43,687 bases of DNA from a virus. The DNA lies in the IMG/VR virus record IMGVR_UViG_3300042328_001217, positions 1 to 43,687 of that record; one strand, given 5' to 3'. Shown piece after piece: positions 3,983-34,686 of the stretch (its first letter is position 1; each line of letters opens with the position of its first letter). A program made the translations under genes and the position numbers. The notes below the pieces were generated by a model. It was not told the origin of the DNA. It saw only the letters and a list, made by a program, of their open reading frames with translations, and searched no databases.

Positions 3983-4332
3983 TGGCAACACCGGCGGAAC
4001 AAGACCTCGTTATCACAAAAGGCGACACAGTTAGTGTCGTCGTAACAATGACGTCCAACGGTACTACCCCAATCAACATTACAGGCAGAACATACTCTGC
4101 AAAAGTTCGACAGACGTATCGATCGCCATCTGCCGCTGCCGAGTTTGTTTGTAACGTAACTGATGGAGCAGCAGGCGAGTTAACCATGACCATGAGTGCC
4201 GCCACAACAGCAACATTGAACAATTACAACAACCAGCAAACTTACGTTTGGGATCTGCAGGAGAACGCTTCGGGCGTTATCACCACCGTTCTCTCAGGAA
4301 ACTTTGTTGTTTTACCTGATGTAACGTGGTAA
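3982..4332 (+). CDS. Beta-sandwich structural protein before the fibre
   Basis: A 116-residue protein with [19 protein letters not shown] near the N-terminus and VWDLQ then [13 protein letters not shown] near the C-terminus. This pattern is frequent in small phage proteins encoded before fibres or baseplate parts and suggests an Ig-like or fibre-attachment domain. It is translationally coupled to the genes on both sides. The role is inferred from context. Confidence 0.6.
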
Positions 4333-4336
4333 CGCC

Positions 4337-5497
4337 ATGGCTTCGTTTGACATAACAGTCACCAGGCAGGATGTAATCGATGGTGCTATTACGACAGCTC
4401 AGATTACTATTGTCGGCACAGATAGCGTTGGACCCCAGGGCCCTACCGGTCCAACAGGTCCTACCGGCGCTGCTTCAACTGTAACTGGTCCAACTGGTCC
4501 TATTGGCAATACTGGTCCAACTGGCGCTATTGGTCCAACTGGCCCTATTGGTCCAACTGGTCCTATTGGTGAACAGGGCGCTCAGGGTATTATTGGTCCC
4601 ACTGGTTTAACTGGACCACAAGGTCCCACCGGCCCAACAGGCGCAACTGGCGCACAAGGCATACAGGGCTTTACTGGTGCTACAGGCCCTACAGGTGCCC
4701 TTGGAGTACAGGGCGCAACGGGTCCTACCGGTCCAACCGGCCCAACAGGACCAACTGGTGCAGCATCTACTGTTACGGGGCCAACTGGCCCTATAGGCGA
4801 TCCGGGACCGCAAGGTGTTACTGGTCCTACAGGCCCCACTGGAGCTACGGGCCCTACTGGTGCAGACTCTACGGTAACAGGACCTACTGGTGCTACTGGA
4901 CCCGAAGGTGCTCTTGGAGCTACAGGTCCTACTGGTCCGATCGGTCCTGCTGGCAACGATGGTCCAGTCGGTCCTACTGGCCCTACAGGTGCCACGGGAC
5001 CAACAGGCGCTGATTCAAATGTGACAGGACCCACCGGAGCTGTAGGTCCTACTGGTCCTACTGGTCCTACGGGCCCCACCGGTGCTGCATCAACAGTGAC
5101 TGGTCCTACGGGTCCTGCTGGTGTGGATGGTGCAACAGGGCCCACTGGACCGCAAGGCCCGACTGGTCCTACCGGAGCAACAGGCACATTTTCTAACGCT
5201 CAAACCATCAATGCTCAAACAGGTACAACATACCCACTTGTATCTAGTGACGCTGGAAAGATGGTGACATTAAATAATGGTTCGGCTATCACGGTGACAG
5301 TGAACGGCACAACAGGGTTGACGGCTGGGCAGGCTATTGACTTGGCGCAGTTAGGTGAAGGTCAGGTAACGGTGTCAGAATCTGGCGTTACTTTGAACGC
5401 TACGCCTGGTAAGAAACTTCGGGCTAGGTATTCGGCTGCCACCCTGTTCTGCGTTTCAACAGACAACTATCTTCTTATCGGGGATTTGAGTGCGTAA
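4337..5497 (+). CDS. Collagen-like fibre protein with phage-type C-terminal domain
   Basis: A 386-residue protein in three parts: an N-terminal attachment segment (1-31), a collagen-like Gly-X-Y region (32-284, 77 triplets by my count, mostly GPT), and a 102-residue C-terminal domain. The C-terminal pattern [19 protein letters not shown] ... [11 protein letters not shown] ... [10 protein letters not shown] is widespread at the ends of phage collagen proteins and probably drives trimerisation. The triple helix is interrupted five times by S-T/N-V-T after GAA or GAD. It should form a trimeric rod on the capsid or tail and may bind the host. Confidence 0.85.
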
Positions 5498-13525: not shown

Positions 13526-14658
13526 TTGCAACATTTAAGGACCTTGAAAAAGCGGCTCGTGGTGGCACAGTTCGTAGCACTGTTTCTCCTGAGGCGGTCA
13601 TGGGCAAGCCAGCGCAATTAAGATCTTCCCAACCACGGACTAGTAATGCTGGTTTTGGTGCAGGAGGTACCGCACCCCGCGATTCCCAATGGATCCCTTA
13701 CGAGGCTGATTCTTCTACAGGGCTAATTGGCACCAGCTATGGCGACCCAACCAAGACTTATGCTCAACTATTGGCGTCTACCGGAACTACGGGTGGTTCA
13801 GGAAAGTATGCTGGTTTTAATACAGAAGGCGCTCTAACAAGCGCTATCCGTGGTGGAGCTATGAACTTTAGAACACAAGTTCCAGCGAACCTTCGTTCTG
13901 CAGCAAATCAACGTTTTGAACAAATGAACGAGATTCTTCGCCCTGCTAGCAAAAAGATTGAAAAAGATTTGTTTGGTGGAACAATCGGTTCGTACAATAA
14001 AATGGAGAATTACCGTGGCGCTCTAAAGGACTGGTACGCACAAAATGCTGCTCCTGCCCAAGAGTATATTAATACCGCCCAACAAATCGAGGCTACCCCC
14101 GTTAGCTCGCTTGCATCGCAAATTGCTGCATCCAAGTACGGTCAGAGCGCGGATTGGGCTGCTAATCAATTCAAGGATTTGGATACAGAGTATGCAAGCT
14201 ATGTCCGCAACCAAGACTACCTAGATAAGTACGGCATTACATACGATACCTACATCAGCCAATTGGCCGAACGGGACAAGATCCAAGCCGTTACGAACGA
14301 ACAAGCAAACAGTCAGCTTGAGGCTCTTACTGGCTTGCGTGGAAACTTTATTTCTACTGTCACGGCTCGTACCCCAAGCCAACTCATTGAAGCTGCTGCT
14401 AAACCCGTCAAGTACCGTGAACCAGGTAAAGAATACGGCGAGGACCAGGTTGACCAAGATACTGGAACCAACGTTATCAACCTTGCTAGAGGCTTTATTT
14501 CTGACCGTAAATACCAGGAAGCATATGACATGGCTCAAAGCATGGAAGAGCAAGGTTACCCTGACGCTGCATATGTTGTGTATGCAATGCTCAAGGCTAG
14601 CGGTGCTAGTGAAGACCTTAAGAACAGACTGGCACTCTCTGGTATTGTTACTCCCTAA
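13522..14658 (+). CDS. Candidate internal virion/ejection protein
   Basis: A 378-residue protein with a disordered Gly/Ser/Thr-rich N-terminus (about 1-100) and a long helical region rich in Ala, Gln and Tyr (about 110-378). The C-terminus resembles helical hairpin repeats (RGFISDRKYQEAYDMAQSME). ATGA overlap upstream and TAATG overlap with the 2,453-residue gene. In podoviruses genes at this place encode proteins ejected with the DNA; the sequence itself gives no direct match. Confidence 0.6.
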   Translation: MIATFKDLEKAARGGTVRSTVSPEAVMGKPAQLRSSQPRTSNAGFGAGGTAPRDSQWIPYEADSSTGLIGTSYGDPTKTYAQLLASTGTTGGSGKYAGFNTEGALTSAIRGGAMNFRTQVPANLRSAANQRFEQMNEILRPASKKIEKDLFGGTIGSYNKMENYRGALKDWYAQNAAPAQEYINTAQQIEATPVSSLASQIAASKYGQSADWAANQFKDLDTEYASYVRNQDYLDKYGITYDTYISQLAERDKIQAVTNEQANSQLEALTGLRGNFISTVTARTPSQLIEAAAKPVKYREPGKEYGEDQVDQDTGTNVINLARGFISDRKYQEAYDMAQSMEEQGYPDAAYVVYAMLKASGASEDLKNRLALSGIVTP

Positions 14659-17600
14659 TGGCAGCCAAGCGTTTAACACCAACTAGCGGTATTCCGGTAC
14701 CACCCGTACCACCGGTTCCCGTGGTTCCAGGATTGCCTGGGTTGACGCCGCCTACTACTACGGTCCCCCCTACGACACCCAAAACCACTGGTCCTACTCG
14801 TACAACATCAAACAAGGTTAAAACACGGCTTGGCACCGTGGAGATGGAGCAACTCGCTGGCGACCCTGCTACAAGGTTAAAAACCGAAGGTAGGGCCATC
14901 CGTGACCTTATTGTTAACGCCCCTGTTGGGTTTACTCAGTTTGTTGTTGGCGCAGGCATAGACATTGGTAAAGGGGCTTTGGAAGTTGGTTCAAAGCTTA
15001 TACCGGGCGTTAACTTCGAAGCTGGCAGATTTCGGACTACCGAAGATTTGATTTCCAGCTTCGGAAGAACTGGTCAGTTTTTAGGAAGAGCACTCAACCC
15101 TGTTCGCATGGCTGGCGCAGCTATAGACCCACGCAACCCAAAGTACGACCCGCTTCCTCCGCATTACATGGAAGCTTTAGAAAAGAACCAATCTATCCTT
15201 CCGTTTATTATTGAAGATTTTGGAAACATCTCTATGGCCGGAAGTATTTATTCCGGTGTTGCTAAGGGTGCCATTAGGGGTGTTACCTTAGGAGAAGCTG
15301 CAGCGCGAGCAGAACGTACGGCGGCATCCAATGCCATGGCTTCCGCCGCAGCAGGAAGTGCTGAAGCCGCAGAAGCAGCAGCCCGTATGGCAAAAGCCGA
15401 TGCTCAGTTAGCTAGGATCGCAAGAACAAAAGACGTATTAGGGAAGCAAGCCGACATCGGTAGAAATATTGCCCGGCAGGCAGACAGAGTTGGCGCTTTA
15501 CCGTTCAAGCCCTACACATATACGACAAGAAAACTTCTTGGGCTTTACCGTGATGGTATCTACTTGGGCCCTGATGGTCGCTACGCTCGCTGGGGTCAAA
15601 AAGCATCCGAAGGGTATGCAGAACAAGCGCAAAGGCTTGTTGATGAAGGCGTTTCAATGGACGACGAACGTGTCGTTAACCTCATGAATAAGTCCGTCAA
15701 GGCAGGCCGTCGTTCTGTTGCTCGTGAAGTAATGAAGCAGGTTCGTGCAGCAACGCGAGATGCAGAAAACGAACAGGGTTCAGCCGTTCGAGCCGTAACA
15801 AGCCAAATGATGGATCCCCTACATAAAGACGTTATTGATCCTGAAACCAATCAGCCTTATGGAGAACTAAGCCTTGATGAAGCGGCAGCAGTTCTTGCTG
15901 TGATCGGTGGTAACGCACAAATCATCAACCGTTTAGCTGCCCGCTACAACATCTCCCCTAGGGTTCTTGCGCTCATGGGTCGTTATGATTTCAAAGAGGA
16001 ATACTCATTAAGTCAACGTGCAGCCGAAATGGCTCGCGACTTCATGAACTACTCTCCTGAAAACCCTGGCACTCTTACGCCGGAGCGCTATGAACGTTTA
16101 GCTGACGCTGCAGACAAAGTATCAAACGTTGTGTTCAAGGCGATGATTGAACGCGCTGCTGCTGGATATGGTCGCCGCAACGCACTTGATCCTGCATACA
16201 TGGTTCCAACTCCTTTTGTGGAACGACTGGAACGCAATATTCTTGAATCAATCAAGCAAGCGGAAAAGGCACTACGTAAGGAACGTTCTAAGAAAACCCC
16301 TAATACTGCCGAAGTATCTCGTCTTGAAATTATTCTGAACGACCGTTATGCCCTTTACGAAGCTTGGGGAGAAGTTAAAGAAGCGGGTATTTTTGATCTT
16401 CCCGTAGACCACCCTGACCGTATTGCCACACTAAAAGGTTTTGTTGACCAGCTTCCAATTGAGCTAGCGCTTGACCCAACGATGTACCCGGCTTCTATGC
16501 GTGTTCCAGTTGAATTTTACAGGCGTATTCGTAGGGCAATGGCTGCAAAGATTATTGGTGACGAAGGCGGCCCTGAACCGGTTGGACCCGACGGTGAACC
16601 TACAGGACCACGCCTTACCCCTGCTCGCTCCACGAGAGAAGGCGCAGTTGAAGCAGAACTTGCAAAGCGTGAACGCTCTAAGGAAGCCATCGAACGCAAG
16701 ATCAAACAAACCGCAGAGCAGATCGACAAACTGGAAGTACAACACGCCAAACTTGTCGAGCGTATTCTTCGTTACGACGTTGTTGATGCTTACATTGGTG
16801 GCGCATCTTTTATTCAAATTGTTGGCGACTTTAATTTAGACGGAAACCTTGTAAGAAAGATTCTTGAGAACAGTCCTGTTGCTCGCACATACCGTCGTTT
16901 GCAAAACATTAGAACCCGTCTTGCCGAAATTGAATCCCAAGTAGGTTCAGCAAACATCGACAAAATTGATGCCATCATGGCAGAAGCCGATCGGTTGAAT
17001 CAAGAAGCAGCTGCAGCACAAGCCGAATACGAGCGTGTTGCTGCTTTGGCAGAAGCAGAACGCCAGCAGATTGAAGCAGAAGCAGACGCACTTAACGAAG
17101 AACTGTATGACCTTGAAGAAGGCATGGGCGACTACGAAGGGCAGTACGAAGATGCTGGCGGCGTTGTCGAAGATATCTATGAAGATGACGGAACGATTGT
17201 TGTTGAAGACGGTGAAGCACCGACTGGTGTAATAAGAGATCCATATGATGTTGTCAAAGAAATATTTGGCGATGAAATCGACAAAAGAGACAAAGTAGCA
17301 AGTGATGAAACCGGAAAAAACGCTCCAAATAAAAAACTTGCTACTCAATTTCCTGAGCTCAAACAAGATATTACACCTCAACCAACATTGCCTGGTTCTG
17401 ATTTTGACGTTCAAATATCCGCCAAATCCAGGATCGGATCTTCTTTTCTTGATGGGAAAACAGATGTAGAACACGATAAAACCGTTGAAATGCACCTTGA
17501 TGACGGTTCCGTAGAATTCCACATTTTTATTTCCGGAGAAAAAGGTGTCAACGCATTCAATAACGTTTTACAACAAATTGAAACAACGAGGCGTGTATTA

Positions 17601-20600
17601 AACGATCTACTTAATGGTAACTACAATGAAGCAGCTATTGCCAGCCTTGTTGACCAGGGTTTTAACGACGAAGTTTCTATTTTGCAGATTTATTCTAATG
17701 ACATCAATCCCAAAAGATTCACTACACCATATATAACGGAAATTACAAACGAAACACCACGCGAAGTCATTCAAAACATAATTGATGGTTTAGATGAAGC
17801 TGAGCATCAGATTCGTTCACTTGCTACTGGAGAAACAAGCAAGGCACCAACACTAGGACTAAAGCCTGTAAAAGAAGAAGCCCCAGCAAAACTTACGCCG
17901 GTTACAAAGAAACGTGATGTTTCTGAAAAAACTGGTCTTGTCCACCCAATGGACGTTATGGAGGAAATGTTTGGCCCTCAATTAGAAAAAATTAGGGAGT
18001 TAAGGCAGAAAAACGAAGACCAACGCAACAGCAGAAAGAAGAAAGAATACGTAGATGTTCCCGAACCTGAAATTGATCTTAATTTACAACCGGTAAATAA
18101 CGAATACACCGTAAAAGGTACCCTAATTCTGTCCGGCCAAGACAGAATGAACTCAAACGATTCTTTTGGGATAGAAGTTTTAGGGCCTACTCCTCGTGCT
18201 GGCGAGTTAGGTGTTCGCGCAGACATATATGTAAACTATCAATACAACAAATTTGACGAGGCTTTGGAAAGCATTGACGATGCTATTGGTGAGTTAACCA
18301 AGATTATTGAAGGAGAATTAGATCACCGATCTTTTGACGCAATGGCTTCTGACGTTGGCGGAGATTGGGGCGGCTCAACAATAAATGTTTTTGATACAAC
18401 AGACCCCGATTTTAACATTCTTTACGACATTGGAGATCTTTTACGTCGTGGAGAAGCTGTTGACTTAACTTCTGTAAAGCAAATAATTTCTGCTTTAGAA
18501 GAACTAAAACAGCAAATCGTTAACGTTGGAACACCGGGCGCAACCACAAAAACACCAGGACTAAAAGCACCGGCGACACCTAAACCACCAGTCAAAACAG
18601 ACTTTGAGCTAGTCAATGAAATTTTTAATACGTTTGGTTTCTCCCGTCGTACTGACGTCGGCAAAATGATCCTAAATGCTTTTGATGAAAGCCCTGTCAA
18701 AGTTGAAACCGTTCCCGACAAAATCATTGAAGGACAAAACAAATACATTGTCAAGGCGATCAACAGCGTTTTGCCTAGAGGATTCCATGTTTTTGTAGCC
18801 GGTAACGCTCCATATTTTTCCGATGGGTTTGTTGTTGTCCCAATGGAGACTACGACGTTCAAGAACGTTATTATCCCTATTGCCCCTGACGGTTCGGGTT
18901 CGTACTATTTTGACAAAAAAGGTGACGCAAAGGCTGATAGCTCTAATGTCACAAGGACGAGCGACTCAACGCCACTTCAGGCGATTATTGAAAAATACAT
19001 TAATCCTGATGGTAGCTTAAAGGAAAAGGGTAAACCTCTTCAGGAGGTTGGTCGCGACATTAGCGACGGCGTGGTTGTTGTTGTTTTAGAAACAGCCGAT
19101 GGCGAAAGGGCCTACGTACCGCTAGAGCGTTATCAAGCTATTGGTAAGGCACAGTATTACTATACCGGAGAACAGCCAGTTTTGTTTGACAGCGCTGGCC
19201 AGTTCGGCGTTGTTATGTCAAGCAAACCAGCATTGTTTGAGGGTGGCACAAAGGTTGACAGACTTGTTTCTTCTTTAGAAGGCATGAAGCTTACCCCTTC
19301 TCAATTTAATGGAAGAATGGTTAAGACCGTCATTGAAGATTTTAGAAACGCTCTTGGCGGAACACCTAGAGAAATTGACGTCACATACCAGCCGGGTTAC
19401 GAACCTAAACCAAAGCCCCTTACTCCCAAGAAGCCAAAGGCAACCAAGCCTTCAGAAGTAAAACCTGACGACAACATTGTGGATCCCGTTGTTCGCGAAG
19501 CTGTCTACACCAAAGAGGTAGTAGACGCCATGGCTGCTGATGCTGCAGCAAAGATGGACGCTGCACAAACTTTCAACGAAAAGATTAAAGCTTTCCAAGA
19601 GTTCCTTGACCTATCCAAGAAGTATGACGCTGAAGTGGCCCGTATGGCTGTTGAGCTTGAGCCATCCCGTAACGCTCGTGCAAAGAAAAAGAAGATTGAA
19701 GAAAAGATTGCCAAGCTTCGTGCCGCTTTAGAAGAACTGCCTGAACAAGCTGAAGCCGCTGATGCTGCCATCGAAGCCATGCTCACCAATCCGTTCTATG
19801 ACGCATATATGAACATGGATGGCAGCACCCCACTAGATGTTGCTTTAGAAGGTGGGTACCCATCAGAAATTGGTGGCTTTGAGATCGAAAGCCCAGGCGG
19901 GGAAAACGTTCGACTCATCGGCCCAATGTATTACCCCTCCGGTGTACCAAAAGAATTCTTTGGTGGTATTGAAACCGAAGTAACCCGTGAAGGTTTTACG
20001 GGCTATGAAAAGCTTTCAAGCGAACACTATCGAGATGGTGACCGGCAAGTAATTTTCTCATTGCGAGAACTTGCTATTCGCATGGGGCGTCAAGTACGCC
20101 AAATGGCAATGAACGATAAATTCCGTGCTCTTGTAAAGCAGTTCGGAAAGTCGGCTTCAGAAATCCTTGGGGAAGAATACACTCAGGGGCTATACGAACA
20201 GGCTGTAGCTTACGTAGACAACATGCCGATCGATGCTCTTCGCGTTCACGTTGCAGAAAAAATATCTGAATCGTTGAAAACAGACATGCCGATTTCGGGT
20301 ATTGCATCCCCTGGCCCTGGTGTAAAGAACCAAAAAGCCGTACGAGAATTTGCTATCAATTTTGAATTTGGCCGACTTATTGGTGAAGCCATGCGAGCAC
20401 GTGGATACGAAGCAATTGATCCATATGCCAAAATCAAGGATGTTATCCCTGCACAAAACATCACTGCTCGTCGTGCTGGAGAAACCGTTGCCGACGTAGA
20501 TATGGATGGGCCGTTTGATGACCCCGCTCCCGACGACATCGTTCCTGAAACAATGTTTTTGCCAAAGGGCATTAAAGAAAAGATGGCTCAGGTTGTTAGC

Positions 20601-22019
20601 ACCAAGAACGAAGGTGCTTTTGAAAAAGCAATGCGTGGAGCCCAAAAGGTTACCTCGTTCTTTAAGGTCGGAACACTTGCTCTGTCCATCCCTTGGCAAA
20701 TTGGGGACCTGACAAGCAGCATGATCATTTCAACAATGTCCGGGGTTGATCCACGAACATTAATTAAATACATGAAGGAAATCAAAATCCAGGAATACGG
20801 TGAAGGACCAGGCAGCTTACGCCGAATGGTTGACCCCAACGCCGACTGGACAAACTTCCGTCGTGGACCGTTGGCTCGACTCGCTGGTGAATCAGGAGTA
20901 CAGAACCTTGGGCAAACACTTCAGGAACGTTCCTACTTGTATGGCGAAGACTTGCGTCCTGAGCGTGGAGTCGTGGATCGCTTAACTGGTGGCCGCCTAA
21001 AGTTTGTCAGCGACGCAGCGGCTGCCGTAACGGGTGTTTCTTTTAAGATTAACGAAACCATCAACAAGATTGTTCGTCACGCATTCTTCCTTGAACAACT
21101 TGATATTCAACTTCGTCAGCGTGGACAAACCCTTGAGTCGCTAAAGAACGTAGAGAACTGGCAGAACGATTCTAAGTTGCGAGAAGCTGTATTTGATGCA
21201 GCACGTTCTGCAAACCAATGGCTTGGTGACTATGCGAACCTCAGCGTCCGGGAACGTAAATACATGGGGCCATTGATTCCGTTTTGGTCATGGATTCGCC
21301 ACATTCACGGTGTCTTTGATCTCGTTGCAGTCAACAACCCTGAAGCACTGTTCTACTACATGTACCTGGGTACGCTTGCAGACGCTGAAGATGATCCGTT
21401 GGGTCTTCGCCGTGGCGGCTTCAATGTGTTCGGTGGAGTGGCGTCAAGCAACTGGCTAAACCCGTTTGCTGACGTCGTTGCTGGTCCAATTGGTAGCGCT
21501 CTTCTTGAACAAGACCTACGCCCTGCTGGTGGTTCGCTTGGTCCCGTACCTCGCCTTTTGGGTGGCGCTGTTGGATATGACGTTTCTCGATTCGGACTCA
21601 TTCGCCGTCCAAGCGGAACAGGTGGGTATTCCGAAAGTGGAGAACAAACTTCACGATCCGTACTGCCGTTGGTTGGTGGTTCGGTTAGCGAAACAGCAGG
21701 ATTCACAGCCCAGCAGTTCCCGATTGTTCAACGTCTTCTCAACCTGAACCCAACACCGTTCGAGAACATCCCTGGAACACGTATTGCGCTCGGTCCAGTA
21801 GCTCGTTTCCAAACAGGTGAAGCACGACTGTCATCCACAACCGGGCGACGCATTGAACAGCCTGGTGGTCGCCTTGCGTCTGCTCTGCGTATGTTTGGTG
21901 GACCACTCGTTCCATACCGCACAGACGAACAGATTGCTGAAGTTCTTTCTGCTGCTCGCCAAAAGCTTATTACCCTTGATGAAATCCAGCGCCAGCGGGA
22001 ACTGCAGGGAGCACCATGA
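14658..22019 (+). CDS. Giant multi-domain ejected/polyvalent-type protein
   Basis: A 2,453-residue protein. In order: a Pro/Thr-rich N-terminus (1-50), a hydrophobic Gly-rich segment (about 85-118), Ala/Arg-rich helices, a coiled coil (about 664-845), three related modules starting near 861, 1096 and 1315, a second coiled coil (about 1620-1715), and a C-terminal region with DYANLSVRERKYMGPLIPFW near residue 2190. That last pattern, a DY..L...E....PF..W core, recurs in very large phage virion proteins. I see no convincing catalytic motif. With no tape measure and a short-tail gene set, an ejected protein that helps DNA cross the envelope is likely. Coupled to genes on both sides. Confidence 0.75.
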   Translation: MAAKRLTPTSGIPVPPVPPVPVVPGLPGLTPPTTTVPPTTPKTTGPTRTTSNKVKTRLGTVEMEQLAGDPATRLKTEGRAIRDLIVNAPVGFTQFVVGAGIDIGKGALEVGSKLIPGVNFEAGRFRTTEDLISSFGRTGQFLGRALNPVRMAGAAIDPRNPKYDPLPPHYMEALEKNQSILPFIIEDFGNISMAGSIYSGVAKGAIRGVTLGEAAARAERTAASNAMASAAAGSAEAAEAAARMAKADAQLARIARTKDVLGKQADIGRNIARQADRVGALPFKPYTYTTRKLLGLYRDGIYLGPDGRYARWGQKASEGYAEQAQRLVDEGVSMDDERVVNLMNKSVKAGRRSVAREVMKQVRAATRDAENEQGSAVRAVTSQMMDPLHKDVIDPETNQPYGELSLDEAAAVLAVIGGNAQIINRLAARYNISPRVLALMGRYDFKEEYSLSQRAAEMARDFMNYSPENPGTLTPERYERLADAADKVSNVVFKAMIERAAAGYGRRNALDPAYMVPTPFVERLERNILESIKQAEKALRKERSKKTPNTAEVSRLEIILNDRYALYEAWGEVKEAGIFDLPVDHPDRIATLKGFVDQLPIELALDPTMYPASMRVPVEFYRRIRRAMAAKIIGDEGGPEPVGPDGEPTGPRLTPARSTREGAVEAELAKRERSKEAIERKIKQTAEQIDKLEVQHAKLVERILRYDVVDAYIGGASFIQIVGDFNLDGNLVRKILENSPVARTYRRLQNIRTRLAEIESQVGSANIDKIDAIMAEADRLNQEAAAAQAEYERVAALAEAERQQIEAEADALNEELYDLEEGMGDYEGQYEDAGGVVEDIYEDDGTIVVEDGEAPTGVIRDPYDVVKEIFGDEIDKRDKVASDETGKNAPNKKLATQFPELKQDITPQPTLPGSDFDVQISAKSRIGSSFLDGKTDVEHDKTVEMHLDDGSVEFHIFISGEKGVNAFNNVLQQIETTRRVLNDLLNGNYNEAAIASLVDQGFNDEVSILQIYSNDINPKRFTTPYITEITNETPREVIQNIIDGLDEAEHQIRSLATGETSKAPTLGLKPVKEEAPAKLTPVTKKRDVSEKTGLVHPMDVMEEMFGPQLEKIRELRQKNEDQRNSRKKKEYVDVPEPEIDLNLQPVNNEYTVKGTLILSGQDRMNSNDSFGIEVLGPTPRAGELGVRADIYVNYQYNKFDEALESIDDAIGELTKIIEGELDHRSFDAMASDVGGDWGGSTINVFDTTDPDFNILYDIGDLLRRGEAVDLTSVKQIISALEELKQQIVNVGTPGATTKTPGLKAPATPKPPVKTDFELVNEIFNTFGFSRRTDVGKMILNAFDESPVKVETVPDKIIEGQNKYIVKAINSVLPRGFHVFVAGNAPYFSDGFVVVPMETTTFKNVIIPIAPDGSGSYYFDKKGDAKADSSNVTRTSDSTPLQAIIEKYINPDGSLKEKGKPLQEVGRDISDGVVVVVLETADGERAYVPLERYQAIGKAQYYYTGEQPVLFDSAGQFGVVMSSKPALFEGGTKVDRLVSSLEGMKLTPSQFNGRMVKTVIEDFRNALGGTPREIDVTYQPGYEPKPKPLTPKKPKATKPSEVKPDDNIVDPVVREAVYTKEVVDAMAADAAAKMDAAQTFNEKIKAFQEFLDLSKKYDAEVARMAVELEPSRNARAKKKKIEEKIAKLRAALEELPEQAEAADAAIEAMLTNPFYDAYMNMDGSTPLDVALEGGYPSEIGGFEIESPGGENVRLIGPMYYPSGVPKEFFGGIETEVTREGFTGYEKLSSEHYRDGDRQVIFSLRELAIRMGRQVRQMAMNDKFRALVKQFGKSASEILGEEYTQGLYEQAVAYVDNMPIDALRVHVAEKISESLKTDMPISGIASPGPGVKNQKAVREFAINFEFGRLIGEAMRARGYEAIDPYAKIKDVIPAQNITARRAGETVADVDMDGPFDDPAPDDIVPETMFLPKGIKEKMAQVVSTKNEGAFEKAMRGAQKVTSFFKVGTLALSIPWQIGDLTSSMIISTMSGVDPRTLIKYMKEIKIQEYGEGPGSLRRMVDPNADWTNFRRGPLARLAGESGVQNLGQTLQERSYLYGEDLRPERGVVDRLTGGRLKFVSDAAAAVTGVSFKINETINKIVRHAFFLEQLDIQLRQRGQTLESLKNVENWQNDSKLREAVFDAARSANQWLGDYANLSVRERKYMGPLIPFWSWIRHIHGVFDLVAVNNPEALFYYMYLGTLADAEDDPLGLRRGGFNVFGGVASSNWLNPFADVVAGPIGSALLEQDLRPAGGSLGPVPRLLGGAVGYDVSRFGLIRRPSGTGGYSESGEQTSRSVLPLVGGSVSETAGFTAQQFPIVQRLLNLNPTPFENIPGTRIALGPVARFQTGEARLSSTTGRRIEQPGGRLASALRMFGGPLVPYRTDEQIAEVLSAARQKLITLDEIQRQRELQGAP

Positions 22020-22813: not shown

Positions 22814-23075
22814 TCCTGCTTGGCAACGCAAAGAGGGCAAGAACCCCGAAGGTGGTCTGAATGCTAAAGGCCGCGCCTCTTACAATCGTGCTACCGGAGG
22901 CAACCTAAAACCCCCTGTTTCTCGCGAACAAGCAAAGAAGTCCAAGAAGTCCGCTGCTCGTCGTGAAGCATTTTGCCGTCGCATGGAGGGCATGAAGTCA
23001 AAGCTGACCAGCGAGAAGACTGCCCGTGACCCTGATAGCAGGATCAACAAAGCACTTCGGAAGTGGGACTGCTGA
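22806..23075 (+). CDS. DUF6321-like small basic protein
   Basis: An 89-residue protein containing KEGKNPEGGLNAKGRASYN (about 9-27), then KPPVS, then AARREAFCRRMEGM and a C-terminal WDC. This arrangement is characteristic of a widespread small phage and bacterial family that I recall as DUF6321. Its function is unknown. The gene overlaps both neighbours; the next gene starts at the ATG inside the TGATG junction. Confidence 0.75.
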   Translation: MASPAWQRKEGKNPEGGLNAKGRASYNRATGGNLKPPVSREQAKKSKKSAARREAFCRRMEGMKSKLTSEKTARDPDSRINKALRKWDC

Positions 23076-25399
23076 TGGTTCCACGTTCTGCAAACGCTGC
23101 TGAAGCAGCACTTTTAGCCAAGAAAAAGGCTGCTAGAAACCAGCCAAAGCCACCGTTTGATCCAAGCGACCCAAGCACCTGGCCACAAGCTACGCCTGGA
23201 CGTGTTGCCCAAATGCAGGCCGATCAAGGCTACAAGCCGTTGACAGGCAAAGCTACGGGGCAATACGTAGCACCCGACACCAACATGTATAACGCCACTC
23301 CTACGGATGTTGCTCGCGGCACGGTTGGTTTTTTAAACACAAACTTGCGCGACCCTTTGTATCGCACTTTTAGTACGCAAAACTTGCAAAAAGCTTTTAA
23401 CCCGAACACTAACGAAACAGACCGTGCTTTAGCTATTGCTGAAGACACATTAAACATTGCTTCTGTTGTGCCCGGTGTTAGGGCTATTGGTGGTTACATC
23501 GATGACGCTGCTCGTTTTGCTGATGATGGCGTCAATGCCCTTGCCAGGGCGTGGGGCAGGTACAGAAATAGAGGTCAAGTCGCTGATTCTTCATCAACTC
23601 CTCAACAGTACGTTTCAAATAGATTGGCAAAAGCCGTTCGCACCGAAGAGGAATTGGCAGAAAATGTATCTAAAGAGATTTCAAACATAAAACTTCGCCC
23701 CGAACAAATGGTTGGCCCAAATAGGCCAATATTTAGAAGGCCCGAATGGGACGAAGAACTACCTTCAGGTGTCAAAAGATTTTGGCACAGCAATCCGGAA
23801 GGTGGCAAAATTCCGTCAAATCTGATGTCTATGCAAGAAGCAGCAAGAATCCCTGAAAGAAGAGGCAGTGGTGCCACTCAATTGTTTAGTGGTGGCATAT
23901 ACAATACCGATTCAGGTTATATTTCTGCTTTGTATCCGCGTGATTATTCTGAATTTGCTAACACGATTGTTAAATCATCTACGCTGCCGTATTCCGTTAT
24001 GCCGGACCAGTTAATTGATGATTTAATAAGCGTACCAGGGACTTGGGCTGGCGTTACCGGCTCTGATGCGCCTTTTAAGCAGCCGGAAGTATTGAAAAAA
24101 ATTCGTCAAATGCAGGTTGACGATTTTAAAAACCAATTTTTAAACCTTGACACTCCGATTGAATCTGTCCCTTTTGGCGATAGAACTTCTTCAGTTTTAA
24201 TGCAGCGCAGAGGGATGTGGTCGGGCAAAACACTTCGGGAAGTTTTGGAAGAAGCGGAAACCCCCGAAAGGGCGCGTCAAATTATTGAAGATTCCTTGCG
24301 TCCAATTGTCTATAAGCCATCAACACAAGTCGATAGTGCTCTTCCTCTTGCTAGACAAAAAGCTGCCCAAAACGAAAGAATAGATTTTAGACACCCAATT
24401 ATTAAAAACGCCGATGGGTCTTATAGCAGATCCGCTATTGTTGCCCCCGATTCGGGTTTGTATTTGTTTGGTAAAGAAGCGGAAAGAGGATTGGAAAAAA
24501 CTTTTTCTCAAGAATATTTTGATAAATTAAAATTATTACAAGAACAAAATTACGCCGACGAGTTACAACAGCTAAAAGAACTCTACCCAAATAGACCAGA
24601 TAGTTTTTATGAAGAAGCGATAAATGCTGCCAACAATTCTGCCGACACAATTACCCCCTCAGGTGTTTACGGTGTTTTTCAACAACATTTTAAAATTCCT
24701 AAATTTACAGAAACTTCACACGCGTTTCCTGGACAAAACTATTGGGATCTACCTATTGTAAGAAACGCAGATGGCAGCATTCAATCGGTTGCTGGGTTAA
24801 AAGCTATAGACATCGACAAGGGAACACCTGAAACATTTAATGAACTAGCTAATCAGATTGAAGCATTTGTCAACGCTGAACACCCATTTCAAATCAATAA
24901 TCCGGAAGTTCTTAAAGCGATTGAATCGATCAGAACATTGCATGATGTTCAAAACAAGACGCAGCAATTTGCATGGGTTCAAAATAGATTGGTTAGTTTG
25001 TTAACACCACGAAACAATATGTTCAGTATAGGCACCGACTCTACGGTAAAAGAAAATTTATACAATTTTTTAGAACAACAGGGTTACGGTGTTATACCGC
25101 ACTCCGGTGGGCAGGTTACAGGCGGTCAATCACACTTGGCATTAAATTTTTTAAAACCTGAGCTTTTGCCTCCGTCGACATACGCTCCACCAATAGGGGC
25201 TGATTTTGGCGACGCTTTATCTTCTATCGCTCGTCAAAAAGCTATTCAAATGCGCGAACTGAGGTCCCAAGGAACAGGCAGGGAACTCACTGGTTACCTA
25301 GCACAAGAACGAATGAACAAGCGGTTGATGGATGCTGCCCGCGCCGCACGTTTGGCACCAATAGCTGGCACCCCTAGACAAGCCACAAGCAATCGCTAA
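23075..25399 (+). CDS. Large unknown protein with ART-like pattern
   Basis: A 774-residue protein. ATG at 23075 overlaps the previous TGA, so I prefer it to GTG at 23063. A disordered Pro/Lys N-terminus is followed by alpha/beta regions. FWHSNPEGG (His at about 238), SGGIYNTDSGYISALY (about 272-287) and GYGVIPHSGG with GGQSHLALNFLKPELL (about 670-698) recall ADP-ribosyltransferase-like polyvalent domains, but the spacing is very large and no catalytic Glu is clear. It may be a late virion protein or an injected effector. Local AT content rises between 23.9 and 25.1 kb, hinting at a different origin. Confidence 0.6.
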   Translation: MVPRSANAAEAALLAKKKAARNQPKPPFDPSDPSTWPQATPGRVAQMQADQGYKPLTGKATGQYVAPDTNMYNATPTDVARGTVGFLNTNLRDPLYRTFSTQNLQKAFNPNTNETDRALAIAEDTLNIASVVPGVRAIGGYIDDAARFADDGVNALARAWGRYRNRGQVADSSSTPQQYVSNRLAKAVRTEEELAENVSKEISNIKLRPEQMVGPNRPIFRRPEWDEELPSGVKRFWHSNPEGGKIPSNLMSMQEAARIPERRGSGATQLFSGGIYNTDSGYISALYPRDYSEFANTIVKSSTLPYSVMPDQLIDDLISVPGTWAGVTGSDAPFKQPEVLKKIRQMQVDDFKNQFLNLDTPIESVPFGDRTSSVLMQRRGMWSGKTLREVLEEAETPERARQIIEDSLRPIVYKPSTQVDSALPLARQKAAQNERIDFRHPIIKNADGSYSRSAIVAPDSGLYLFGKEAERGLEKTFSQEYFDKLKLLQEQNYADELQQLKELYPNRPDSFYEEAINAANNSADTITPSGVYGVFQQHFKIPKFTETSHAFPGQNYWDLPIVRNADGSIQSVAGLKAIDIDKGTPETFNELANQIEAFVNAEHPFQINNPEVLKAIESIRTLHDVQNKTQQFAWVQNRLVSLLTPRNNMFSIGTDSTVKENLYNFLEQQGYGVIPHSGGQVTGGQSHLALNFLKPELLPPSTYAPPIGADFGDALSSIARQKAIQMRELRSQGTGRELTGYLAQERMNKRLMDAARAARLAPIAGTPRQATSNR

Positions 25400-29917: not shown

Positions 29918-30209
29918 AGACCGGCAACCAATAGTGCCGTGTCGCTGTGTGAAGGTCTACCATGAACTCCAAGCTCTGGCGTAGTGCATTGGGGAAGCCT
30001 GCGATCTCCTTCTCGGAACGAACAATAAACGTAGAACCTTCGGGGTGCTGGTACTCAATGCGCATGGCATACGATCCCGACCCAACGGGAACTATCTTCC
30101 ACTTGCCTGTTCCTGCGACAACAAGGTTCACGCCTAACGGTCGTTGTGGTGGTGGCAACAATTCAGTTAGCTCATCAGCCAAAATTTGTAGTTCATTCAT
30201 AGTTGTCAT
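29916..30209 (-). CDS. Small minus-strand protein divergent from the AAA operon
   Basis: A 97-residue protein; ATG at 30209 chosen, with 30200 as alternative. No clear Shine-Dalgarno in either case. A helical start (ELQILADELTELLPP) is followed by a beta-rich part (LVVAGTGKWKIVPVGSGSYA) and a C-terminal helix. It is divergent from the AAA ATPase operon and its start codon overlaps that operon's -35 box, so the two units probably interfere. A regulator role is possible, but no DNA-binding motif is seen. Confidence 0.6.
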   Translation of the reverse strand: MTTMNELQILADELTELLPPPQRPLGVNLVVAGTGKWKIVPVGSGSYAMRIEYQHPEGSTFIVRSEKEIAGFPNALRQSLEFMVDLHTATRHYWLPV

Positions 30210-30255
30210 AGGTGGAAGTCTACGGCATAATAACTCCGTCGGCAACAACGCCGAC
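30203..30255 (+). promoter_or_regulatory. Promoter and 5' hairpin of the AAA-VWA operon
   Basis: TTGTCA (30203-30208), a 17-base spacer and CATAAT (30226-30231), then after six bases the hairpin GTCGGC-AACAAC-GCCGAC (30238-30255). The hairpin would begin at or next to the transcript start. On the minus strand the same AT box reads TATTAT and could serve the divergent gene. Confidence 0.65.
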
Positions 30256-30275
30256 CACAACGAAAGAGACATGAA

Positions 30276-31070
30276 ATGTCATCATCATCATCATCATCAT
30301 TCAGCCAATGCTGGTCAGACCTTGACACAGCTCTACAAGCGAACAGCGATCGTATCTTGTTGTACGGCGCGCCTGGTACGGGTAAGACCCATTACGCCTT
30401 GACGCAACATCTCGACTACAACGGTCGTGTTCGCAACTCCCACCGTGTTCTTTGTTCTCCCGACATGACTACTGCTGATGTAGACGGTCTATGGAAGCCA
30501 ACGAAAGACGAATGGAAGTTTGTTATGGGGTCTGCGCTTCGTGCGTGGGCGAATGGCGACCGTCTTATCCTTGACGAACTTGACCAAGCTTCCGGTGATG
30601 TTCTCACAGCATTGCTGCTTATTTGCGATAGCGACGGTTCGGCCGTTCGTGAACACCCCGAAACAGGTGAGCGTATTCAGCCACAGAAGGGGTTTGAGAT
30701 TATCGCCACAACGAACGCCGAACGACTTAGCGACCTGCCTGCAAACTTGGTAGACCGTTTCCCCGTTCGCATCAACATCAACGAAGTGAACCCTGCCGCA
30801 GTTGAGAAGCTAACGCCACACTTACAAAACGTCGCTCGCTGTTACGCCAACCGTTCGCAGGATCGTTACTCGTTGCGCTCGTTCTTTGCTTATGAACGCT
30901 TGTTGGAGAAAGTCCCACAGGACACAGCGTTGCGCCTTGTGTTCCCGAATGAATGGGAAGCTATTAGCGAGAGCCTTCGTGTTGCCAACGCTGTTGCTTA
31001 TGACGGTGTTGCACCTGGCTCGCTCAATGAAGCCGACACAGTTATTGCAAGCAAGGAAGGTGCGTTGTGA
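30276..31070 (+). CDS. MoxR/CobS-like AAA+ ATPase
   Basis: A 264-residue ATPase. Walker A GAPGTGKT at 31-38, Walker B LILDE at 97-101, sensor-1 ATTNAE with Asn147, and a candidate arginine finger in VDRFPV (Arg161). The order and the downstream VWA gene place it with MoxR/CobS chaperone ATPases, which remodel proteins or insert metals with a VWA partner. Seven TCA codons follow the start (S-rich N-terminus). The nearby ATG at 30271 is in another frame and gives only a His run. It overlaps the VWA gene by four bases. Confidence 0.85.
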   Translation: MSSSSSSSFSQCWSDLDTALQANSDRILLYGAPGTGKTHYALTQHLDYNGRVRNSHRVLCSPDMTTADVDGLWKPTKDEWKFVMGSALRAWANGDRLILDELDQASGDVLTALLLICDSDGSAVREHPETGERIQPQKGFEIIATTNAERLSDLPANLVDRFPVRININEVNPAAVEKLTPHLQNVARCYANRSQDRYSLRSFFAYERLLEKVPQDTALRLVFPNEWEAISESLRVANAVAYDGVAPGSLNEADTVIASKEGAL

Positions 31071-32554
31071 CAGACAACAAGCGTGTCGTTAGTCCTGAAT
31101 GGGTCACTTCCGTTCGCGGGGATAGAAAGTTAGACGAACGCTACGGTCAGGGGTGGGGCGTAAGCCCTGCCCCTGTTGTTCGTGGTGCGTCTTTCACGGA
31201 CTTTTCATCTTGCGAAATGGCTGTCCCTGTTGGTGACAGCGAAGCCGAAACGGCTATTCGTTTCCACGAGTTACTTCATGCAGGCGTGTCACCGGCAGAA
31301 GTGCCAATGGGACTTATTTCCCAAATGGGTATCTCACGCCAAGCCATTCGTCTTGCCGAGGAAGTCCGTGTGAACTGTATCGGTCGGTACATCACTGAAC
31401 GCTATGGAAGCAAGGGCGACATTCGTAACTTGGCTGACGGTACTGAAAGTGCAACAGCCAACGAAATAGTCAAGCGAAAGAGCTGGAACGAAGCAGTTGT
31501 GTTGCTTCTCACCACGCTCAATACGTCTGCGTACAAGAATGTTCGGCGCAAGTTTAGAACGGTCAAAGAATGGCGTGACCTGATTGCCCAGGTGGAAAAG
31601 TATCTCGAATCTCACGGCTGTCACTTTGACGCTAGAAAAAGGGAAAACCGACATCACGCATACCATGTTGCTCGCTGGGCGAGAAACACTTCCCCCATTG
31701 TCTACAAGTGGATAGACCCTAAGAACGGTGAACAGAACACGGTATTCACAGAGGGCTTTCAGTCATTCACACTTCCGTTGGCGATAGCGATTGACCAGAT
31801 GTTCCAATACGAGAGCAAGGAAGAAGAAGGCAACAAGGGCAACGACCTACAACTTGTGCATGGTGCAACTAAGCGTGACCTGCTCTTGGGTAGCGAGTTT
31901 TGGGAGACAATGATCATGGGGTCTACAACTCTCACAGAACCAACTGCAAGCTTCATCAGCAAGCGCAGGCGACCTGCCATGACAGGCAAGTTCCCTTCTC
32001 GCCCTGACCGTATGCTCACCGACCCCGAACGCCGCATCTTCCGTGAGACGGTTCGCAGTCGTGGTGGTGTTGTCGTATTTGACTGTTCAGGCTCAATGGG
32101 TGTTTCGCATGAGGTCGTGCGTGACGCCGTGAAGCAGTTTGCAGGCGCAACCGTTCTTGTTTATTCCCACGTTTCTAGGGGCAAGCCGAACGCCTGGGTC
32201 GTAGCGAAGAACGGCCGAATGATTAGTGAAGCAGAGTTTGACGAACTACCACTTCATCACGGCAACGGCATTGACGCACCGGCACTTCGTTGGGCATTGC
32301 GTCAAAGACGGTCGAATAAAGACTTCGTGCTGTGGGTGAGTGACGGTCAAGTAACGGGTCGTGGTGACACTATGCGCGAGGACTTGGTAGAGGAGTGCGC
32401 TCACCTATCACTTCGTCACAACATCATTGGCGTAGATACCTGCCATGAAGCTTTACAACTGTTAGCAGACATGAAGCGCACTAACGCAACGCCGAAACAC
32501 AAGTTCTGCCGAAAAATTACAACTCAACTAAGAATGATGAAAGGTGGTCGCTAA
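31067..32554 (+). CDS. VWA-domain protein with HELLH metallopeptidase-like motif
   Basis: A 495-residue protein. The N-terminal part carries HELLH at 67-71 and EE at 98-99, the layout of a gluzincin-type zinc site and of VWA-linked metallopeptidase-like domains. The C-terminal part (about 330-495) is a VWA domain: DCSGSMG at 339-345 (MIDAS D-x-S-x-S), GNGIDAPALRWAL (399-411, like the CobT region without the usual Thr) and WVSDGQ (423-428). VWA proteins work with MoxR/CobS ATPases as substrate adaptors. Start overlaps the ATPase stop, so the two are made together. Confidence 0.85.
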   Translation: MTDNKRVVSPEWVTSVRGDRKLDERYGQGWGVSPAPVVRGASFTDFSSCEMAVPVGDSEAETAIRFHELLHAGVSPAEVPMGLISQMGISRQAIRLAEEVRVNCIGRYITERYGSKGDIRNLADGTESATANEIVKRKSWNEAVVLLLTTLNTSAYKNVRRKFRTVKEWRDLIAQVEKYLESHGCHFDARKRENRHHAYHVARWARNTSPIVYKWIDPKNGEQNTVFTEGFQSFTLPLAIAIDQMFQYESKEEEGNKGNDLQLVHGATKRDLLLGSEFWETMIMGSTTLTEPTASFISKRRRPAMTGKFPSRPDRMLTDPERRIFRETVRSRGGVVVFDCSGSMGVSHEVVRDAVKQFAGATVLVYSHVSRGKPNAWVVAKNGRMISEAEFDELPLHHGNGIDAPALRWALRQRRSNKDFVLWVSDGQVTGRGDTMREDLVEECAHLSLRHNIIGVDTCHEALQLLADMKRTNATPKHKFCRKITTQLRMMKGGR

Positions 32555-33360
32555 TGAAGATTGACCCACACAACAACAAACCGTTAGACCTGCTAGACGA
32601 GTGCCACACGAAGTATGGGCTAAACCGTCTGCGCTCAACATCAGAGAACACTCGCTGTTACTACCGTGTATGTGAATACGATCGTGACAGCGACGAATGG
32701 AAGGCTGATTGGAAGCTTGGCAGTATTGGCGAAGGCATGACTGATGTTATGACCGAAACTTTTGCTGACATTGTGAAGCGGCTTGGACAAGCTTCTAAGC
32801 AGGGAGAGACAGCACTCTGTCCGACCTTTGACGCAGTGCTAGTCGTGGTGTCCGGAATGGGTCGGTACTTCGTTCGGGCAAAAGACGGGCGAGAGTGGGA
32901 ACAACTAACCGAGGAAGAACGGGAAGAAGTGCGCAACGAAAAAGAGAGCGCAGTCCTTCCCCCTGAATACAACCCAACGGAAGCAGTCCCGACACGCATG
33001 AGCATTGTTCTCACGCTGGAAGGTATCGCAAGGGAAGTAAGCATCTTGCCCCCAGGCATAGACCCCATTGTTGAGCGAATGGAAGAATGGGTGCATGACG
33101 GCAACGACACCACGCCTGACGCATCTAACGAACTAGACCAGAGTGTTCTGTCGCTGTTCACATTCATTCAGATCATCAACGAGACAGTTCGGCAGGGAAG
33201 AAGCTTCGACCTAACAGGTCTGATGCAGACTGCTGCACTTATCCCCCGTGAACATGGGGGAAAGGAAATGAGTGCGTTCTTGTTGCGTCTTATCTCAATG
33301 GGCGTAGAGACAGGCATCTTTGACCTAACCGACCTAATGGGTAGTGAAGATGACAACTAG
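32554..33360 (+). CDS. Third protein of the AAA-VWA operon, unknown
   Basis: A 268-residue acidic protein, TAATG-coupled to the VWA gene. N-terminal half is beta-rich with several Tyr/Trp (CYYRVCEYDRDSDEWKADWK); a charged helix (EQLTEEEREEVRNEKE) follows; the C-terminal 100 residues are helical (LSLFTFIQIINETVRQGRSF). I recognise no family. Its strict coupling suggests it is a substrate or regulator of the ATPase-VWA pair. A double hairpin follows the stop. Confidence 0.7.
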   Translation: MKIDPHNNKPLDLLDECHTKYGLNRLRSTSENTRCYYRVCEYDRDSDEWKADWKLGSIGEGMTDVMTETFADIVKRLGQASKQGETALCPTFDAVLVVVSGMGRYFVRAKDGREWEQLTEEEREEVRNEKESAVLPPEYNPTEAVPTRMSIVLTLEGIAREVSILPPGIDPIVERMEEWVHDGNDTTPDASNELDQSVLSLFTFIQIINETVRQGRSFDLTGLMQTAALIPREHGGKEMSAFLLRLISMGVETGIFDLTDLMGSEDDN

Positions 33361-33374
33361 CCGATAGGTTCAGG

Positions 33375-33445
33375 TGTGTCGGGTTTTGCTCTTTTTCCCC
33401 GACACAAAGAAGCCCCCTGTGTGGTAATCCACGCAGGGGGCTTTT
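33375..33445 (+). terminator. Two tandem hairpins ending the AAA-VWA operon
   Basis: First stem TGTGTCGGG (33375-33383) with CCCGACACA (33398-33406). Second stem AAGCCCCCTG (33410-33419) with CAGGGGGCTT (33434-33443), an inner GTGG/CCAC and a following T-run. The second is a textbook rho-independent terminator. Confidence 0.85.
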
Positions 33446-33453
33446 CTTTACGT

Positions 33454-33481
33454 TATGTTGGGTGTGTGGCAACAACGCCAC
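33454..33481 (+). promoter_or_regulatory. -10 box and 5' hairpin, unit 2
   Basis: TATGTT (33454-33459), then GTGGC-AACAAC-GCCAC (33466-33481) after six bases, then a purine-rich ribosome binding site and ATG at 33501. No clear -35 is seen. Same arrangement as at 30226-30255. Confidence 0.6.
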
Positions 33482-33950: not shown

Positions 33951-34556
33951 GTGAATACGACAGCCGAAACACTTGCTAACGATTGGGGAACCGTAATCCC
34001 ATTCGTTGGCTACTCAATGGACAACGCCCAAGTATGGGAGAAGTACGGGTCGGAGTGGGTGGAGTTCCCCCACGCCACAGATGATGTCTATCTCACACTC
34101 AAAGTGTTCGCTTCACACAGAGCCAATGTCCCCGAAGAACTAGCCCCTGATGCCATTGCCCTGATGACGACGGGTTATGCCGCACCGATAGACGAATGCA
34201 TTGACGAAGCAACGGGAGAGAACACGACCCCACCTTCCGAATGTGAGAGCAGGCGCAGGGTCGCTATCGCTGTATTCGTTGCCCGTGATGCGTCACGATG
34301 CACCGAGATGCGCTTCCAAGATGACGAACACGGAGAAGGCATCAGGGAGAGCAGGGGGTCGGGAATGTTGTCTGATGCCGTAGACCTGGTGGCACTTAGT
34401 GCCTGGGGTGCAGAGTATTTGGCGCGCCTGTCCATTCTCGCCGTAGATGAGAGCAACGGGCTAGACAACAGCGAGAGAGCAGAACTCAGAGACAGGGTCG
34501 GCACGTTGCTAAACAATGCCGAACTCGTGCAGGGTGCGCCTGACCTGTTCCCCTGA
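33951..34556 (+). CDS. Acidic protein, unknown
   Basis: A 201-residue protein with GTG at 33951 preceded by AAAAGGAGAAG. Acidic and mixed alpha/beta, with GYSMDNAQVWEKYGSEWVEF near the N-terminus and a C-terminal Leu/Ala/Glu-rich helix pair. No motif recognised. Single-gene unit with its own promoter and terminator. Composition is more GC-rich than the structural genes. Confidence 0.65.
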   Translation: MNTTAETLANDWGTVIPFVGYSMDNAQVWEKYGSEWVEFPHATDDVYLTLKVFASHRANVPEELAPDAIALMTTGYAAPIDECIDEATGENTTPPSECESRRRVAIAVFVARDASRCTEMRFQDDEHGEGIRESRGSGMLSDAVDLVALSAWGAEYLARLSILAVDESNGLDNSERAELRDRVGTLLNNAELVQGAPDLFP

Positions 34557-34635: not shown

Positions 34636-34686
34636 TTGTGTCGGTCGCTGGTCTGTGCTTAGAATGACGCAACGGCAACAACGCCG
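34636..34686 (+). promoter_or_regulatory. Promoter and 5' hairpin, unit 4
   Basis: TTGTGT (34636-34641), 18-base spacer, TAGAAT (34660-34665), then CGGC-AACAAC-GCCG (34673-34686) after seven bases. AAGAAAGAGA precedes the ATG at 34708. Confidence 0.6.

Follow-up and report, generated by a model that had tools for sequence, protein, structure and literature searches.

The 43.7-kb IMG/VR virus record IMGVR_UViG_3300042328_001217 ("the window" throughout, meaning the whole stretch of DNA analysed) belongs to a phage that infects freshwater bacteria. Three genes that overlap head to tail form an operon at 30276-33360; their products are an AAA_5 ATPase, a VWA protein and an acidic protein, P3. 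We conclude that the ATPase and the VWA protein are likely a protein-remodelling machine of the NorQD/MoxR type. The reading we prefer, to which we assign a probability of roughly 45%, is that the targets of this pair are complexes involved in replication or recombination or related to damage, and that acidic proteins serve it as adaptors or clients. The operon, the family to which its pair belongs, a superfamily of acidic partner proteins (P5, U and D), the SOS-locus neighbourhood of a chromosomal sister pair, and the absence of the pair from sister phages are firmly established; the role itself we infer.

The ATPase matches Pfam AAA_5 (E 8.8e-16) and has the features of that family, namely Walker A (GAPGTGKT), Walker B (LILDE), a sensor Asn and an Arg finger; residues G31, G34-T38, E101, N147, R161 and R201 are invariant across 35 homologues, and the nearest solved relatives are midasin and NorQ. 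With tblastn against 50,697 phage records its matches were all weak, and lay in Gordonia phages and cyanophage CobS. The protein opens with a run of seven serines (30276-30300) encoded by a TCA simple repeat that its relatives lack; translation may really begin further downstream, or the repeat could be a site of slippage.

For the VWA protein, Pfam scored nothing above cut-off, and neither NCBIfam nor PADLOC gave a match; its one library match is PHROG 33218, of unknown function. Neither it nor its L025 and L026 homologues matched any of the same phage records by tblastn, and an IMG/VR scan with the single protein returned nothing, homologues being reached through alignments. Its motifs are HELLH (residues 67-71), EExRVN (98-103, with the EE at 98-99), DCSGSM (339-344), GNGID (399-403) and SDG (425-427); all 7 aligned same-genus proteins share HE(L/M)xH, EExRVN, DCSGSM and SDG without variation, and the HExxH and EExRVN halves are present also in loci L017 and L151. 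An AlphaFold2 model (mean pLDDT 85.6, pTM 0.63) places HExxH on helix 59-74 and EExRVN on helix 91-113, which at the level of motifs is the zincin layout of HExxH plus a third acidic ligand. The best credible PDB match of this model is the NorD VWA bound to NorQ (9qh8; probability 0.97, but E 0.011), followed by the CLCA1 VWA. The original prediction, made from the letters of the window and a list of its open reading frames, had described an overlapping three-gene operon of a MoxR/CobS-like ATPase with these Walker motifs, a VWA protein with an N-terminal HELLH plus EE, and an acidic third protein, and our gene calls and motif alignments agree with it. It had also credited the VWA protein with a full metal ion-dependent adhesion site (MIDAS), and here it has to be corrected: D339-x-S341-G-S343 and D426 are conserved, GN(G/C)xD stands in place of the canonical Thr, and no homologue has Thr at that position.

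Family members either retain both halves of the zincin motif or have lost both. Most retain them intact, so that in these the zincin-like head is probably a genuine metal-site unit, though one that some members can do without. The motif was lost at least twice on the tree, a single zincin-less clade being rejected (p-AU 1e-4), and peptidase activity therefore cannot be the universal core function.

P3, the acidic third protein, matched no known protein family, a PDB search with its model returned nothing credible, and against BFVD the model matched uncharacterised phage proteins, two of which recall P5, a second acidic protein of the window, in length (150-152 aa). P3 was found in 9 loci, all of the window's genus, and directly follows the VWA gene in all 8 for which upstream sequence is covered. 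The AAA and VWA genes adjoin in essentially all homologous loci where both are in view; the order AAA-VWA-P3, which the original prediction had proposed seeking in relatives, is preserved in 7/7 same-genus phage loci, with P5 following ~0.6 kb downstream. P5 lies between the AAA and VWA genes in another phage lineage (L071-L076, L220, L236, L258, L285) and a few kb from the pair in L055, L212, L218, L240 and L259, and in a zincin-less lineage the pair is accompanied by one acidic protein upstream (U) and another downstream (D). U and D are homologous (hhalign 97.7%, E 2.5e-12), and when all open reading frames were searched, a profile built from U alone pulled in U relatives first and then P5 and D members. 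This recruitment firmly places P5, U and D in one phage protein superfamily, which in separate phage lineages recurs beside the pair or between its two genes, the fullest arrangement being U-AAA-P5-VWA-D in L236. In L073 (4604-5180), of the AAA-P5-VWA lineage, P5 is seemingly split in two frames, through either a sequencing error or a real break.

P3 is probably a divergent member of the same superfamily. Over the region that matches an alignment of 54 P5 sequences, hhalign gave E 6.6e-4 and a probability of 27%, and the score of 30.5 exceeded that of every one of 60 column-permuted controls (at most 23.4); earlier comparisons with fewer P5 sequences were not significant. The original prediction had been unable to place its third protein, and P3 indeed remains without a known family, so that it is neither a known virion protein nor a known metabolic one; it does not, however, stand alone, P5 being a second acidic partner with a superfamily around it. 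The association of P5 with the pair was counted in IMG/VR contigs that a scan with a DNA motif of P5 had picked out. Among the matches listed, the VWA gene was present in 17/43 P5-positive contigs as compared to 0/37 motif matches without P5 (p 4e-6), and, when only contigs of at least 20 kb are considered, in 15/33 as compared to 0/14 controls (p 0.001). That P5 might be an exclusive partner of the pair was rejected, as 26 of the 43 P5 records among the matches listed lack the pair (many are fragments). Two P5 proteins found no tblastn match in the 50,697 phage records. The tested partner proteins have isoelectric points (pI) of 4.3-5.1 as against 9.3 for the VWA protein, a contrast that is compatible with binding, though no proof of it.

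When 84,980 species genomes were scanned, the pair turned up in Acidimicrobiia (14/247 sampled genomes) and in related metagenome-assembled genomes. Downstream of the pair, 19 chromosomal loci have LysM, NrdR and a deacetylase, and also DinB if the contig extends far enough; at 8 loci lexA lies next to the pair in divergent orientation, with LexA boxes (CGAACN4GTTCG) and usually a second box ~41 bp nearer the ATPase gene. The chromosomal pair may be under SOS control. The 15 chromosomal members included in the tree group in a single clade (SH-aLRT 100) next to sequences from phages, which probably reflects a single transfer event; the larger diversity among phages suggests the direction from phage to chromosome, although the tree is unrooted and the direction unproven. 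L043, which bears a Saccharibacteria label, has almost the same set of genes as the Acidimicrobiaceae contig L051 (LexA 96% and NrdR 94% identical) and is probably mis-binned or mislabelled. The presence of the sister pair in an SOS locus favours a role in replication, recombination or damage over exclusion of rival phages, and its position beside lexA points to DNA replication or repair and not to vitamin making. On the phage side, the RecT gene lies 1.5 kb upstream of the operon in the window, and neighbours of the pair in other phages include a RecE-like exonuclease with an annealing protein and, adjoining L081, an SbcD/gp47-like exonuclease.

If the pair does act on such complexes, the AAA_5 protein would form a hexameric, ATP-driven ring, as NorQ and CbbQ do, onto which the basic VWA protein would dock. 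The Thr-less MIDAS-like site of the VWA protein would then bind acidic partners or clients, among which P3 and P5 (pI 4.3-4.5) would be the cognate adaptors or clients, and the zincin head, where intact, would bind metal and may clip the remodelled protein. Inside the infected cell, the machine would target a protein complex engaged in replication or recombination or related to DNA damage.

Several observations weigh against this reading. The LexA boxes may serve lexA alone, the pair is not adjacent to lexA in about half of the chromosomal loci, and the surroundings of the chromosomal pair yielded no member of the partner superfamily. In numerous phage lineages (e.g., L026, L054, L057-L069, L080-L084) no partner is detectable within ~6 kb, and in L151, which has both the pair and P5, the position of P3 after the VWA gene is taken by a basic protein of 133 aa (4303-4704, pI 8.6). 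The homology between P3 and P5 is, by the values given above, suggestive, and the phage neighbourhoods of the pair consist mostly of proteins of unknown function. A much wider version of the same reading holds that an unnamed AAA+/zincin-VWA machine with an acidic superfamily (P3, P5, U, D) is widespread in phages, was once taken onto an Acidimicrobiia chromosome in an SOS cluster and remodels replication or repair complexes, and that many "viral CobST" or "peptidase-CobS" pairs do likewise and do not serve cobalamin; taken whole, we consider this rather unlikely.

Among the other explanations, virion assembly and conflict systems survive best, followed by metal or cofactor insertion and then CobST. 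The pair could act on a structural protein as a folding chaperone or a processing protease, the role put forward for the pair of T4-like jumbo phages (PMC7824862), where the AAA+ and metallopeptidase-vWA architecture is the same; the intact zincin motif of most members would suit such a task. We regard this as unlikely, because in the window the pair sits in the RecT-WhiB region and not among the virion genes, because HExxH has been lost twice in the family, and because the chromosomal members are in an SOS locus where no virion genes were identified. Sister phages also do without the pair, as judged from relatives of the large terminase (TerL) rather than from relatives of the operon. All TerL relatives at least 85% identical and with enough upstream sequence carry the pair, as does L151 (TerL 77%), whereas six 38-43-kb sister phage records with TerL 70-72% identical, which may be fragments, have neither the AAA nor the VWA gene anywhere; in L186 and L191 the RecT-to-TerL interval is intact and the pair absent. 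The pair is thus accessory among phages with a common terminase, which argues against an obligate role in building such virions.

This accessory distribution would equally suit a conflict module, i.e., a ternary system for defence, counter-defence or superinfection exclusion with P3 or P5 as sensor or effector, and ternary conflict systems of MoxR, vWA and a variable third component do exist (PMC7159879). Within the genus, identity to the window drops from 86% for TerL to 72% for AAA, 52% for VWA and 27% for P3, as a conflict module might be expected to show. An arms-race interpretation of this gradient was rejected because the ratio of nonsynonymous to synonymous substitution rates (dN/dS) is low for AAA, VWA and P3 among close relatives (0.06-0.15; 0.06-0.17 over all tested pairs). 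P3 is under strong short-range purifying selection (0.06-0.11), as constrained as the ATPase, with values of ~0.15 for VWA and 0.10-0.27 for P5. PADLOC models gave no good match, IetA matches being confined to 20-30 residues around Walker A, and on chromosomes the pair has a fixed place in an SOS cluster, not a demonstrated one in a defence island. We therefore find a conflict role no easier to accept than virion assembly.

Insertion of a metal or cofactor into one host or phage enzyme, by an activase in the style of NorQD or CbbQO, has in its favour that NorQ and NorD are the best sequence and fold matches and that the adjacency of nrdR could hint at ribonucleotide reductase; it is nevertheless quite improbable, as no metalloenzyme gene accompanies the pair and its steady companions are acidic proteins of unknown function. 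A viral CobST, whose cobalt chelatase subunits would hijack host CobN and raise cobalamin (PMC8651126), is very hard to credit: the ATPase is CobS-like (PHROG 249, "porphyrin biosynthesis", E 5.9e-14) and viral "CobT" proteins have the same HExxH-VWA layout, but the CobT and CobS models of Pfam give no match, the tested window proteins yielded no CobN-like or cobalamin gene, and the chromosomal neighbours are lexA, nrdR and dinB rather than cobalamin genes, so that the original prediction was right not to settle for a plain CobST.

Features of the locus are collected in Table 1. The original prediction had given the operon its own promoter, a leader hairpin and a double terminator. The hairpins are there, the second of the two downstream being a strong terminator, while the promoter match is weak evidence, since it is the sole match in a 5.5-kb region but shuffled sequences average 3.0. 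A hairpin with a CAACAAC loop (core GGCAACAACGCC) stands just 5' of the start codon in three successive transcription units (30238-30255, 33466-33481 and 34673-34686), where mononucleotide shuffles lead one to expect ~0.4 hairpins of this type per window; it is possibly a shared phage element for regulation or mRNA stability. The window also codes for a major head protein, a tail fibre, TerL, RecT and a WhiB-like protein. Two long genes, at 14658-22019 (2453 aa) and 23063-25399 (778 aa), gave no Pfam match and, for the parts tested, no PHROG match; the 2453-aa protein is partly conserved within the genus (42% identity over 35%).

Table 1. Coordinates of genes and transcription signals at the operon (positions in the window)
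Feature	Position	Strand	Details
AAA+ ATPase	30276..31070	+	AAA_5, MoxR/NorQ/CobS-like; 264 aa
VWA protein	31067..32554	+	495 aa; GTG start; 4-base overlap with AAA gene
P3, acidic third protein	32554..33360	+	268 aa; pI 4.5; 1-base overlap with VWA gene
P5, acidic protein	33951..34556	+	201 aa; pI 4.3; GTG start after AAGGAG; own transcription unit
Predicted sigma70-like promoter	30203..30231	+	TTGTCA-17-CATAAT; 10/12 consensus matches
5' leader hairpin	30238..30255	+	GTCGGCAACAACGCCGAC; -10.9 kcal/mol
First hairpin 3' of P3	33376..33405	+	
Strong intrinsic terminator	33408..33445	+	Ends operon; followed by T's; -32.8 kcal/mol

The literature on AAA+/VWA pairs of tailed phages is split. In T4-like jumbo phages a MoxR and metallopeptidase-vWA pair has been proposed to assist virion assembly, by analogy with p618/p892 of Acidianus two-tailed virus (PMC7824862), whereas the equivalent pair of archaeal tailed viruses and cyanophages has been named viral CobST and proposed to produce cobalamin with host CobN in a paper that also notes the annotation of cyanophage cobT as a peptidase (PMC8651126). 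A chromosomal sister family beside lexA and dinB, together with dedicated acidic partners, offers a third and directly testable answer and, if it is true, many of the "cobS/cobT" calls made as auxiliary metabolic genes in viral metagenomes need to be looked at again. In cyanophage P-HM2 the "peptidase" and cobS genes (PHM2_135 and PHM2_136; L114 895-4274) lie between gp46 and the gp45/gp44 clamp genes, a placement that sits oddly with a B12 role for phage cobS; the P-HM2 "peptidase" itself has a zincin-like head and a VWA domain (HEVGH...TEDIRIE...DWSGSM).

As in the window, the jumbo phage and cyanophage pairs join AAA_5 to a protein with N-terminal HExxH...(E/T)ExRI and a C-terminal VWA, but the VWA proteins of the window family are shorter (443-550 as compared to 741-769 aa), have a Thr-less MIDAS and keep other companions, and their homology to the cyanophage VWA protein is weak (hmmsearch E 2.4e-5 at best, with a 6-sequence set and over the N-terminal part; hhalign probability 3-15%). 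NorQ-NorD and CbbQ-CbbO share the ATPase type and the VWA fold; the window pair differs in having no metalloenzyme partner gene, an N-terminal zincin-like domain and acidic partners of its own. CobS-CobT cobaltochelatase has the AAA and MIDAS/VWA architecture in common with it, but the window pair is without CobT or CobS Pfam matches and without CobN or a cobalamin context. The MoxR-vWA ternary conflict systems likewise combine AAA+, vWA and a third component, which in the window operon is not VMAP, iSTAND, FtsH or a beta-propeller, and bpMoxR scored 15.9 against a cut-off of 27 bits. RavA-ViaA, another MoxR AAA+ with a VWA partner, is set apart by description, the window family having a zincin-like motif and acidic partners. 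The window pair is thus a distinct, unnamed family, outside Pfam and NCBIfam, of the known phage AAA+/metallopeptidase-VWA kind, and what is new here is its partner superfamily and its chromosomal context.

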